Assembly (NCBI GenBank): GCA_947624985.1
Contig: CANQMO010000004.1
Span: forward strand, 1-64,000
Origin: an uncultured Oscillospiraceae bacterium
GTDB lineage: Bacteria > Bacillota > Clostridia > Oscillospirales > Oscillospiraceae
DNA length: 64,000 bases
Reading direction: 5' to 3'
Positions 33,348 through 37,006 of the stretch are shown piece after piece (the first letter of the stretch is position 1; each line of letters starts with the position of its first letter). The notes below the pieces were generated by a model. It did no database searches and had not been told where the DNA came from. It was given only the letters and a program-made list of their open reading frames with translations. The translations under genes and the position numbers were made by a program.

Positions 33348-33494
33348 GCGCATGGTCATGCTTTTTTGCAACTTTCACAAAACTTAATATTTTTGTAACA
33401 GGTTTTTACTTTATTTTGTAATATACGGTCTGTAGAATGATTCTTGCAAGAGTCAGTTTCATCTTTTTCATTTTGTCCTCAATCCATAGGGAAT

Positions 33495-33531
33495 CGCCGG
33501 ACCAGGGTCACAGGGTCCGGCGGTTTTCTTT
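33495..33531 (+). terminator. Terminator-like hairpin in front of the TetM-Rae1 fusion gene
   Basis: CGCCGGACC (33495-33503) pairs with GGTCCGGCG (33514-33522), loop 10 nt, followed by GTTTTCTTT. It lies 148 nt after the GNAT gene and 42 nt before the fusion gene. It either ends the upstream operon or acts as an attenuator in the fusion gene leader. An AT-rich, promoter-like stretch at 33385-33440 precedes it, as does a small open frame from ATG 33437 to TGA 33568 that lacks a ribosome binding site. Confidence 0.75.
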
Positions 33532-33572
33532 GGCCGGGCCTTTCAGGCGGACCGTTCTTGGGAGTTGAATAT

Positions 33573-36125
33573 ATGAAGGATCTAACGATCGGGATACTGG
33601 CCCATGTGGACGCGGGAAAGACCACGCTGGCGGAGGGGATGCTCTATCTCACGGGCATGATACGCAGGCTGGGCCGGGTGGACCACCGGGACACCTGTCT
33701 GGACACACACGACCTGGAGCGGGCGCGGGGTATCACCATCTTCTCCAAGCAGGCGGTGCTGAACGTCGGCGGCGACCGGATCACGCTGCTGGACACGCCG
33801 GGGCATGTGGACTTCTCTCCGGAGGCGGAGCGGGTCTTACAGGTGCTGGACTACGCCATTCTGGTCATCAGCGGCACGGACGGGGTCCAGGCCCACACGG
33901 AGACCGTCTGGACCCTGCTGCGCCGGTACAGGGTGCCGGCGTTCCTGTTCGTCACGAAGATGGACGTGGCCAGCGCGGACAAGGCCGCGCTGCTGGCGGA
34001 TATCCGTTCCCGGCTCGGGGAGGCATGCGTGGACTTCACAGCCCCCGCGCCGGAGCGGGACGAAGCCGTGGCCATGCTGGACGAGGCGGCGCTGGACGCC
34101 TATATGGCCGCCGGGACCGTCCCGGACGGCGAGATCGTCCGGCTGGTCAGAGAGCGGAAGCTGTTCCCCTGCTATTTCGGCTCGGGCCTGAAGCTGGACG
34201 GCGTGGACAGCTTTCTCTCCGCGCTGGAGCGCTACACCGCCGCGCCTCCCTGCCCCGCCGTATTCGGGGCGAGGGTCTATAAAATAGGCCGGGACGCCCA
34301 GGGCAGCCGCCTCACCTATCTGAAAGTCACTGGCGGGAGCCTGGGCGTGCGGATGGGCGTGCGCTATCTGCCTCTGGGGGGCAGGTCGCCGCTGGAGGAG
34401 AAGATCAGCCAGATCCGGCTTTACTCCGGCATGAAGTATGAAACGGCGGACACGGTCCCGGCGGGCCGGGTCTGCGCCGTGACGGGGCTGACCGGCACCT
34501 GGCCCGGACAGGGGCTCGGCGCGGAGCCGGACGGGGACGAGCCGTATCTGACCCCCGCCATGGGCTACCGGATCGTGCTGCCCAAGGGCTGCGACGCCCG
34601 GGTCTTTCTGCCGAAGCTGAAGCAGCTGGAGGAGGAAGAGCCGCAGCTGCACATCCTCTGGCAGGAGGCACTGGGCGAGATCCATGTGCAGCTTATGGGC
34701 GCGGTGCAGATCGAGGTGCTGAAAAGCCTCATCCGGGACCGGTTCGACGTGGAGGTGGATATCGACGCGGGCCGGGTGCTGTACCGGGAGACCATCGCGG
34801 GGCCCGTGGAGGGCGTGGGGCATTTTGAGCCCCTGCGCCACTACGCGGAGGTCCACCTGCTTCTGGAGCCCGGCGAGCCGGGCAGCGGCGTGGTGCTGGA
34901 CACGGTCTGCCCCGAGGACGTGCTGGACCGGAACTGGCAGCGGCTCATCCTGACCCATCTGGAGGAAAAGCAGCACCTGGGCGTGCTGACCGGCTCGCCG
35001 CTGACGGACGTGAAGATCACGCTGCTGACAGGCCGTGCCCACTTGAAGCACACTGAGGGCGGGGATTTCCGCCAGGCCACCTACCGGGCGGTGCGCCAGG
35101 GGCTCATGCAGGCGAAAAGCGTGCTTTTGGAGCCATGGTATGCCTTTCGGCTGGAGGTGCCCGCCGACCAGATCGGACGGGCCATCACCGACGTCCGGGC
35201 CATGGGCGGCGTCCATGAAAGCCCCGTCCCCGCCGGGGACGACCGGATGGCCCTGTCCGGCGCGGCGCCCGTGTCCGCCATGGGCGATTACGCCGTGCAG
35301 GTGGCGGCCTACACCGGCGGCAGAGGGCGGTTCACCTGCCATGTGGAGGGCTGCCGGCCCTGCCATGACGCCCAGGCGGTCATCAAGGCCGCGGGCTACG
35401 ACCCGGAGGCGGACCTGGAAAATACCCCCGACAGCGTTTTTTGCGCCCACGGAGGCGGTTTCACCGTCAAGTGGGACCGGGTATTTGAGTATATGCACCT
35501 GGAAAGCTGTCTCAAAGACCCCGACCGGCCCACGGAGGCCGCCCCGGCCCGGCCCCGGCGGGAGCCGGATATCGACGAGGCGGAGCTGGAGGCCATCATG
35601 GTCCGGGAATTCGGTCCCATCCGCCGCAAACAGTACGCCGCCCCCCAGATCAACAGCGCAGCGGGTATCGAATACAGCGCCCGCAAGACGAAAGAGCACA
35701 TCATCGTGGACGGCTACAACGTGATCTTCGCCTGGGACGAGCTGAAGGGCCTGGCGGGACAAGGGCTAGACCTGGCCCGGCATAAGCTTCTGGATATGCT
35801 GGCAAACTACCAGGGCTACACAAAATGCGATCTTGTGGTGGTCTTTGACGCCTACAAGGTCCCCGGCGGTCAGGGGTCCCGGGAGAGCAGCGGCGCGGTG
35901 CATGTGGCTTACACCAAAGAGGGCGAGACGGCGGATATGTACATCGAGCGGCTGGTGAACGACATCGGCAAGAACGAGACGGTCCGGGTTGTCACCTCCG
36001 ACCGGCTGGTCCAGCTGGGCGCTTTCCGGTCCGGGGTGCTGCGCACCTCCTCCGGCGAGTTCAGATCCGAGGTGGACTGGGTCCTGGACCAGATCGCTCA
36101 GGCGGTGAAAAGGACGCAGTTCTGA
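33573..36125 (+). CDS. TetM/EF-G-like ribosome-binding GTPase fused to a Rae1-type NYN endonuclease
   Basis: 850 residues. Residues 1-650 form a translational GTPase of the ribosomal-protection (TetM/TetW) type: G1 AHVDAGKTT 10-18, switch I RGITIF 52-57, G3 DTPGHVDF 74-81 with catalytic His78, G4 TKMD 128-131, then domains II to V. After a charged linker (about 655-705) comes a complete NYN/PIN-like domain (708-845) matching B. subtilis Rae1/YacP: VDGYN with Asp713, FDAYKV with Asp759, ETAD with Asp788, TSD with Asp810, all acidic positions kept. Rae1 cuts mRNA in the ribosomal A site. ATG 33573 follows GGGAG; the longer frame passes through a terminator. Likely a ribosome-stress factor, not necessarily tetracycline resistance. 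Confidence 0.88.
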   Translation: MKDLTIGILAHVDAGKTTLAEGMLYLTGMIRRLGRVDHRDTCLDTHDLERARGITIFSKQAVLNVGGDRITLLDTPGHVDFSPEAERVLQVLDYAILVISGTDGVQAHTETVWTLLRRYRVPAFLFVTKMDVASADKAALLADIRSRLGEACVDFTAPAPERDEAVAMLDEAALDAYMAAGTVPDGEIVRLVRERKLFPCYFGSGLKLDGVDSFLSALERYTAAPPCPAVFGARVYKIGRDAQGSRLTYLKVTGGSLGVRMGVRYLPLGGRSPLEEKISQIRLYSGMKYETADTVPAGRVCAVTGLTGTWPGQGLGAEPDGDEPYLTPAMGYRIVLPKGCDARVFLPKLKQLEEEEPQLHILWQEALGEIHVQLMGAVQIEVLKSLIRDRFDVEVDIDAGRVLYRETIAGPVEGVGHFEPLRHYAEVHLLLEPGEPGSGVVLDTVCPEDVLDRNWQRLILTHLEEKQHLGVLTGSPLTDVKITLLTGRAHLKHTEGGDFRQATYRAVRQGLMQAKSVLLEPWYAFRLEVPADQIGRAITDVRAMGGVHESPVPAGDDRMALSGAAPVSAMGDYAVQVAAYTGGRGRFTCHVEGCRPCHDAQAVIKAAGYDPEADLENTPDSVFCAHGGGFTVKWDRVFEYMHLESCLKDPDRPTEAAPARPRREPDIDEAELEAIMVREFGPIRRKQYAAPQINSAAGIEYSARKTKEHIIVDGYNVIFAWDELKGLAGQGLDLARHKLLDMLANYQGYTKCDLVVVFDAYKVPGGQGSRESSGAVHVAYTKEGETADMYIERLVNDIGKNETVRVVTSDRLVQLGAFRSGVLRTSSGEFRSEVDWVLDQIAQAVKRTQF

Positions 36126-36148: not shown

Positions 36149-37006
36149 ATGCGCATCATCGACACATATCTGGACATCCCGACAGCTTTTGAAAACGGTT
36201 CGTTCTCCCCTGCCCGCTGGCAGAACTATATCGACAGCGCCATCCCCGGCGCCCGATCTATGCTGGAGACGGACGCGGAGTCGGTCCTTGCCGCGGGCTC
36301 TTTTACTTGGAAAAAGGACTATCTTCCCGTTTTGAACGCCCTGCCCGGCCATGCGGAACGGTGCCGGACCGCCCATGACAGCTTCCTTCTCGTCACGGAA
36401 GGGCTGGGCCAGGCCATCCGCGACAAATTCGGCAGGAGTATGAACGTGGATGTCTATCTCTACCTGGGCCTTTGCAACGGCGCGGGCTGGGTCACGTCCC
36501 TGCACGGCCGGACGGTCGTCCTGCTGGGGCTGGAGAAGATCGTGGAGCTGGACTGGTGCTCCCTGGACGATATGCGCGGTCTGGTCTGGCACGAGCTGGG
36601 CCACGTCTATCAGGGGCAGTACGGCGTGCTGGAACGCAGATATGAACGCGCCGCCGACCAGTTTCTCTGGCAGCTTTTCACCGAGGGCGTGGCCATGGTC
36701 TTTGAGCAGACCCTGGCGGGCGACGAGGGATACTACCACCAGGACAGGGACGGCTGGAAGGCCTGGTGCGACGAACATTTCGAGGATATAAAGGCGGACT
36801 TTCGCCGTGACCTGGACTCGATGACATCCGCCGGCCAGCGCTGGTTTGGCGACTGGGTCCGTTACCGGGGCCATGGCGACGTGGGCTATTACCTGGGCAG
36901 TCGGTTCGTGCGGTATATCCTCACCATGCACCCGTTCGACGACATCCTCCGCTTCGACATAGGGGATGTGTCCCGGCTGTTCGATATGTTTTTGGAGCAG
37001 GCATGA
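36149..37006 (+). CDS. HELGH zinc-metallopeptidase-like protein
   Basis: 285 residues, no signal peptide and no membrane segment, so probably cytoplasmic. The zincin motif WHELGHVYQ lies at about 149-157, and FTEGVAMVFEQ about 30 residues later supplies a plausible third ligand Glu. I do not recognise the family with certainty; a DUF2268-like or other gluzincin relationship is possible. The C-terminal half is rich in aromatic and acidic residues. It stands 23 nt after the GTPase-endonuclease gene behind AGAGGTG and 1 nt before ylmH, so it is co-transcribed with two ribosome-related genes. Substrate unknown. Confidence 0.65.
   Translation: MRIIDTYLDIPTAFENGSFSPARWQNYIDSAIPGARSMLETDAESVLAAGSFTWKKDYLPVLNALPGHAERCRTAHDSFLLVTEGLGQAIRDKFGRSMNVDVYLYLGLCNGAGWVTSLHGRTVVLLGLEKIVELDWCSLDDMRGLVWHELGHVYQGQYGVLERRYERAADQFLWQLFTEGVAMVFEQTLAGDEGYYHQDRDGWKAWCDEHFEDIKADFRRDLDSMTSAGQRWFGDWVRYRGHGDVGYYLGSRFVRYILTMHPFDDILRFDIGDVSRLFDMFLEQA

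Follow-up and report, generated by a model that had tools for sequence, protein, structure and literature searches.

The window analysed here, a stretch of 64,000 nucleotides from an uncultured Oscillospiraceae bacterium (contig CANQMO010000004.1), contains at 33573-36125 on the forward strand a single open frame of 850 residues plus stop, with no internal stop, that encodes a translational GTPase fused to a Rae1-type nuclease. The frame coordinates and residue numbers given in the initial annotation of this DNA are correct, and its description of a GTPase of the elongation factor G (EF-G)/TetM fold joined to such a nuclease, with the catalytic residues of both kept, is borne out by Pfam and alignments. 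In the GTPase half, the G domain with its catalytic histidine and domains IV and V of an EF-G-fold translational GTPase are all present, and EFG_III and EF-G_D2 match only under the curated Pfam cut-offs. The P-loop, switch, G3, His78 and G4 Lys/Asp are kept in all 47 fusions of a first set, and His78 is nearly invariant in a 59-row alignment (80 loci examined, 12 of which failed a length or motif check; 58 of 68 full fusions used). In the C-terminal half, the profile check returns the expected YacP/Rae1 match, NYN_YacP scoring 148.5 bits against a curated cut-off of 24.6, and the YacP/Rae1 crystal chains are matched as well (Table 1). The four acidic residues, Asp713, Asp759, Asp788 and Asp810, occur in 47/47 fusions of the first set and are invariant in the larger alignment. 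Structure-comparison rows span residues 1-621, the NYN fold resting on the sequence match instead, and the folded model of the protein comes without pairwise error values. The Bacillus subtilis Rae1 is described as an endoribonuclease of the ribosomal aminoacyl (A) site (PMC6613710; PMC12320835). A profile search of the source organism's own genome found no second NYN_YacP match; as judged by that search, the organism has no Rae1-type nuclease other than the one at the C-terminus of this chromosomal translational GTPase.

Table 1. Coordinates of the fusion gene and its parts in the window.
Feature	Position	Strand	Basis
GTPase-NYN fusion coding sequence	33573..36125	+	850 residues plus stop; open reading frame, Pfam, genus genomes
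GGGAG, ribosome-binding-site-like, 8 bases before ATG	33560..33564	+	read directly
G domain, residues 4-222, with P-loop and catalytic His78	33582..34238	+	Pfam GTP_EFTU 6.9e-46; conservation
Domain IV, residues 400-515	34770..35117	+	Pfam EFG_IV 5.1e-17
Domain IV tip loop, residues 490-500, HLKHTEGGDFR, in place of Tet loop III YYSPVSTPADFR	35040..35072	+	alignment
Domain V, residues 517-599	35121..35369	+	Pfam EFG_C 2.2e-12
GTPase C-terminal extension, residues 600-642, with SVFCxHGxGFxVxW segment	35370..35498	+	alignment
Linker, residues 643-709, mostly disordered in model	35499..35699	+	predicted local distance difference test score (pLDDT) <50 at 651-667 and 684-705
Short conserved helix motif in linker, residues 669-683, xELxxIxxRxxGPxxR	35577..35621	+	alignment, model
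NYN_YacP/Rae1-type nuclease domain, residues 710-848, Asp713, Asp759, Asp788, Asp810	35700..36116	+	Pfam NYN_YacP 2.3e-43; 5mq8/5mq9 9.1e-23

Each of the 25 genus genomes searched has the fusion, at 69-100% identity and covering residues 4-848 or more; 24 of the copies are free of stops. A frameshift between the halves, named beforehand as a finding that would speak against the fusion, is excluded by the intact frame and these genomes, and the 24 stop-free copies likewise rule out a frameshift or assembly joining as its source. The remaining copy (G013, locus L010) has an in-frame TAG between the GTPase and NYN halves, which may be genuine or may stem from faulty assembly. A search with NYN_YacP only gives exactly one match in each of 35 genus genomes, lying in the long frame in all except G013. 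Ratios of nonsynonymous to synonymous substitution rates (dN/dS) against ten genus orthologues range from 0.107 to 0.240 for the NYN domain and from 0.165 to 0.291 for the GTPase. By these ratios both halves are under purifying selection; the fusion gene is stable and inherited.

The fusion is probably a ribosome-targeted, Rae1-like mRNA cutter rather than a drug-resistance factor, a reading of the sequences to which a probability of roughly 0.6 is assigned. Most likely it serves as a one-piece housekeeping replacement for Rae1, whose GTPase would bring a flexibly tethered nuclease to paused ribosomes; we infer both the ribosome binding and the cleavage. In the proposed course of events, the GTP form would bind at the factor site when a ribosome has paused and its A site is free, and domain IV would probe the decoding centre with its own HTxGGDFR loop. 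On GTP hydrolysis the GTPase would move or depart, and the NYN domain on its flexible linker would then enter the A site and cut the mRNA, after which decay and ribosome rescue could follow. This order is less sure than the general idea. In EF-G-like factors, domain IV extends into the A site; because it would share that site with Rae1, the GTPase probably engages first and the NYN domain enters after it, and a disordered linker of 64-107 residues fits action in turn. For the same reason, the docking and cutting proposed in the initial annotation would be unlikely to happen simultaneously if Rae1 cuts in the A site.

The distribution of the two halves was tabulated jointly for 293 genomes of the class, searched with NYN_YacP and the GTPase subfamily. 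The fused state is present in 103, of which 99 have a subfamily frame of more than 780 residues with an NYN match (one stop being read through in G121 and G246) and four have split or cut frames. An unfused GTPase and a stand-alone NYN occur as separate genes in 13 genomes, an unfused GTPase with no NYN_YacP match in 6 (G084, G087, G113, G127, G234, G344), NYN_YacP without the subfamily GTPase in 76, and neither in 95. A second NYN match accompanies the fusion in only 4 of the 103 fused genomes (G177, G230, G264 and G340, the last displayed, at 174 residues), compared with an NYN match in 89 of the 190 non-fused genomes (59 displayed as frames of 168-216 residues, 30 not displayed so). The exclusion has a Fisher p of 2e-16, or 5e-9 with only the 59, uncorrected for relatedness. 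In this table G317 is an NYN match below the cut-off, and the 451-residue NYN frame of G241 is maybe a cut fusion, whose reassignment would change 103 to 104 and 89 to 88. Both states, fused and stand-alone, are found within each of five families (f42, f43, f47, f48, f67). The near-exclusive occurrence suggests that fused and stand-alone Rae1 replace each other. One genome with a stand-alone Rae1 (G163) also carries two paralogous unfused subfamily GTPases (L096, L097). Outside the class, a search for the GTPase only finds a subfamily frame of 877-909 residues in 12 of 288 genomes of the phylum and one of 651-657 residues in 3. In the best 80 loci of at least 598 stretches, the named records that come nearest belong to rabbit-gut Oscillospiraceae assemblies (L115, at 85% across the C-terminal half); the 80 also take in Intestinimonas butyriciproducens, Pseudoflavonifractor phocaeensis, Eubacterium sp. 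14-2 and an assembly of Herbinix.

In the NYN tree, all 123 fused rows fall in one clade (support 100/99), which otherwise holds three fusions that are broken or cut and only three rows that are genuinely stand-alone (L083, L205, L042). In the GTPase tree, one clade (99) unites all 69 fused rows and four truncated copies; it leaves out the 17 GTPases that are genuinely unfused. The simplest reading of these rough trees would be one fusion event, followed by some loss or exchange. For G265 and G281 we do not claim that the fusion has split secondarily: their stand-alone NYN domains are inside the fused clade, their GTPases outside the fused GTPase clade.

Between the halves, the spacing from H642 to V712 varies from 64 to 107 residues in the fusion alignment and the sequence is mostly variable. 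Within it, the structure model places a helix at 669-680, and the surrounding motif is conserved in most of the 59 rows (E671 in 57, L672 in 58, I675 in 57, R678 in 54, G681 in 57, P682 in 49). Unfused GTPases in the alignment end upstream of this motif, which may be a docking site for a putative partner. The linker and the distribution bear on the view that the halves act apart, the GTPase as an auxiliary factor for translocation, recycling or assembly and the NYN domain processing rRNA, tRNA or mRNA alone, with the fusion coupling no more than their amounts. That view, which we consider rather unlikely, would account for a long, disordered linker and for genomes with either half on its own, and a role of NYN proteins in rRNA and tRNA maturation was proposed by Anantharaman and Aravind 2006, as cited in PMC4342817. 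It fits poorly with the linker helix motif, five positions of which are kept in 54-58 of 59 fusions. Fused and stand-alone Rae1, moreover, are rarely found together and the 123 fused NYN rows stay in one clade, from which it follows that the tether is kept.

The GTPase half departs from the Tet ribosomal-protection proteins in several respects. Against the NCBIfam models it scores 365.7 bits for tet_protect (cut-off 775, E 3.6e-109), 215.1 for tet_protect_M_W (cut-off 1100) and 295.5 for Otr(A) (cut-off 900); it also fails the EF-G equivalog TIGR00484, at 242.7 bits against 659.4. The domain IV tip reads HTxGGDFR in 47/47 fusions and 14/14 unfused relatives, compared with YYSPVSTPADFR in Tet proteins, and among all frames retrieved to that point YYSPVS occurs in 12 Tet frames only, each of 644-662 residues. 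The tip loop equals Tet(M) loop III in length, with no deletion, and its His490 presumably aligns with the EF-G tip histidine, going by motif spacing. The SVFCxHGxGFxVxW extension is common to fused and unfused members and is absent from the aligned Tet proteins. C624, within residues 600-642, is invariant in fused and unfused members. In the GTPase tree a branch with support 100 separates 90 subfamily rows from 18 Tet and Tet-like rows, which group together with support 86. These alignments and this tree set the GTPase apart as a separate subfamily, placed as sister to the Tet ribosomal-protection proteins and not among them, and the label ‘ribosomal-protection’ in the initial annotation is not supported for it. 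The accompanying warning about annotation was fair: the curated resistance models match strongly by E-value and far below their cut-offs.

These comparisons make it decidedly unlikely that the fusion protects against tetracycline or another A-site drug, with the GTPase freeing drug-stalled ribosomes and the nuclease removing their mRNA. The overall EF-G/TetM fold and domain order and the E-values of the TetM-type models would suit such a protein, and Atkinson 2015 places the fusions in the Tet subfamily (PMC4342817). Loop III of Tet(M) is reported to act at the 30S tetracycline site, and its letters are not strictly required, the S508A and S508A/P509A/V510A variants being able to remain active (PMC4750697). 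The loop of the fusion is also of the same length. Because the letters of loop III tolerate some change in Tet(M), the tip-loop mismatch reduces the probability of drug protection but leaves some of it standing. Against drug protection stand bit scores far below the cut-offs, a tip loop and C-terminal extension that differ across the whole subfamily, and a gene that is vertically inherited and genus-wide beside chromosomal genes. In addition, a canonical Tet protein above cut-off is present in 20 genomes, and 6 of them (G082, G088, G100, G192, G254, G313) carry the fusion too. It is very improbable that only the GTPase works and that the NYN domain survives as a regulatory RNA-binding relic, given four acidic positions invariant in 59/59 rows and a dN/dS for the NYN domain as low as that of the GTPase.

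Several points weigh against a ribosome-targeted mRNA cutter. Neither half needs the other, as seen from the 6 of 19 unfused-GTPase genomes without NYN and the 76 NYN-only genomes, and the pair is dispensable over the class, 95 of 293 genomes having neither. In the GTPase tree the subfamily adjoins the Tet/Tet-like group and not the two EF-G-type outgroup proteins, a position also expected from a protection-protein origin; this tree was made by a quick method, with long-branch and composition warnings and rows thinned to 110 of 161. The NYN tree is built on 140 columns only and its bootstrap is unsettled. The proposal as a whole is drawn from sequence, and ribosome binding by the subfamily is something that we infer.

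Around the fusion, the neighbouring genes are chromosomal and encode uracil-DNA glycosylase, LPG_synthase_C-like, GNAT, YlmH, SpoVAD and SpoVAEB proteins. Where short flanks were compared at 20 genus loci, GNAT occurs at 18, the LPG_synthase_C-like gene at 17 and YlmH at 14. The wider gene order is not kept: only the ABC transporter, among eight neighbour queries, was found, at 1 of 28 diverse fused loci, and YlmH is present at 24 of 80 named loci. A mobile resistance gene is unsupported, as the neighbours are chromosomal and shared across genus loci. Downstream, at 36149-37006 (+), lies a 285-residue protein in which a metallopeptidase-like HExxH motif (VWHELGHVYQG) was recognised by eye; it has no Pfam match at 1e-4 and no NCBIfam match, and is present in 5 of the 20 genus loci with short flanks.

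Directly upstream of the fusion, at about 33445-33531 (+), is a candidate small RNA, in which a pyrimidine-rich conserved stretch with UCCUC is followed by a hairpin and a run of T. It comprises a conserved core, CAGTTTCATCTTTTTCATTTTGTCCTC, and a covarying, terminator-like hairpin, with conserved TTTGTAAC boxes upstream. The 25-base core occurs in one copy each in 19 of 35 genus genomes; this copy lies directly upstream of the fusion in 11 of them and on a different contig in the other 8. The same 35 genomes have no match to the reversed core pattern. The copies were picked by the core itself, and its invariance is partly a selection effect. In the hairpin, 6 of 15 pairs have changes on both sides (16 of the 19 copies aligned). 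In further genera of the family, a model of the element recovers full-length copies that score 43-81 bits; E is <1e-4 in 10 of 15 family genomes searched, and many weaker matches are likely chance. Rfam gives no match at gathering score and, at E up to 1, only a chance-level microRNA match. A second, weaker copy stands in tandem about 200 bases away at three loci (L244, L245, L246). Two genus genomes, those of L005 and L006, have no such element; there the ATG of the fusion overlaps or abuts the GNAT stop (TGATGAA), and the two genes are maybe translationally coupled. The UCCUC of the candidate RNA could pair with ribosome-binding sites.

The initial annotation left undecided whether the architecture had been described before. 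It is already in print: Atkinson 2015 (BMC Genomics, PMC4342817) reports Tet proteins with a YacP-like NYN domain in ten clostridial species and suggests a resistance role, and the present clostridial protein has the same arrangement, its single frame running from a Tet/EF-G-like GTPase into a YacP-like NYN domain. A literature search, which left out several Rae1 papers, found no later work on the fusion. The surprise is limited accordingly. The present analysis adds how far the fusion extends, that it largely excludes stand-alone Rae1, and the description of its tip loop, its linker motif and its unfused sister genes. If the GTPase is Rae1's partner, the fusion names the factor that recruits Rae1 to particular paused ribosomes, in a form testable with one protein. 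Where this gene is labelled as a tetracycline-resistance gene in gut genomes, the label is probably mistaken, a point of relevance to resistance surveys.

Compared with known systems, the nuclease half resembles Rae1/YacP of B. subtilis (5mq8, 5mq9) in its NYN fold by sequence, its four acidic residues and its VDGYN and TSD motifs; in B. subtilis Rae1 is described as a stand-alone protein cotranscribed with rlmB (yacO), whereas here a GTPase carries it at its C-terminus. Tet(M)/Tet(O)-type proteins (3j9y) share the EF-G-like fold, the G motifs and the domain order. They score about 190 bits to the fusion protein, compared with 531-620 for its unfused kin, and are set apart by the tip loop, the C-terminal extension and the curated cut-offs that the fusion does not reach. 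With EF-G the GTPase shares the fold, and the genome holds a separate EF-G-type gene (C8, 696 residues). With the fusions of Atkinson 2015 the protein shares architecture and clostridial hosts; to the account given there are added the tracing over the 293 class genomes and 299 genomes of the phylum, the subfamily's own tip loop and the unfused sister genes. RelE serves as a comparison for ribosome-associated mRNA cutting (PMC12320835). More tentatively, and at somewhat less than even odds, the HTxGGDFR subfamily could be a distinct class of translational GTPase whose job is to deliver Rae1 to ribosomes that have paused; in some clostridia the two would be separate partners, and in many others they would form a single chain that has a linker motif of its own. 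SmrB acts on collided ribosomes, and yeast Cue2 cuts beside the EF-Tu-like GTPase Hbs1-Dom34. If our interpretation is right, SmrB, the RelE toxins and Hbs1-Dom34 with Cue2 would work in a similar mode, an mRNA cut aimed at a stalled ribosome; the likeness meant is one of function, and a difference is that GTPase and nuclease are here one chain. On the more tentative reading, the HTxGGDFR subfamily would give bacteria a one-piece equivalent of the mRNA cleavage that a GTPase guides in ribosome quality control.
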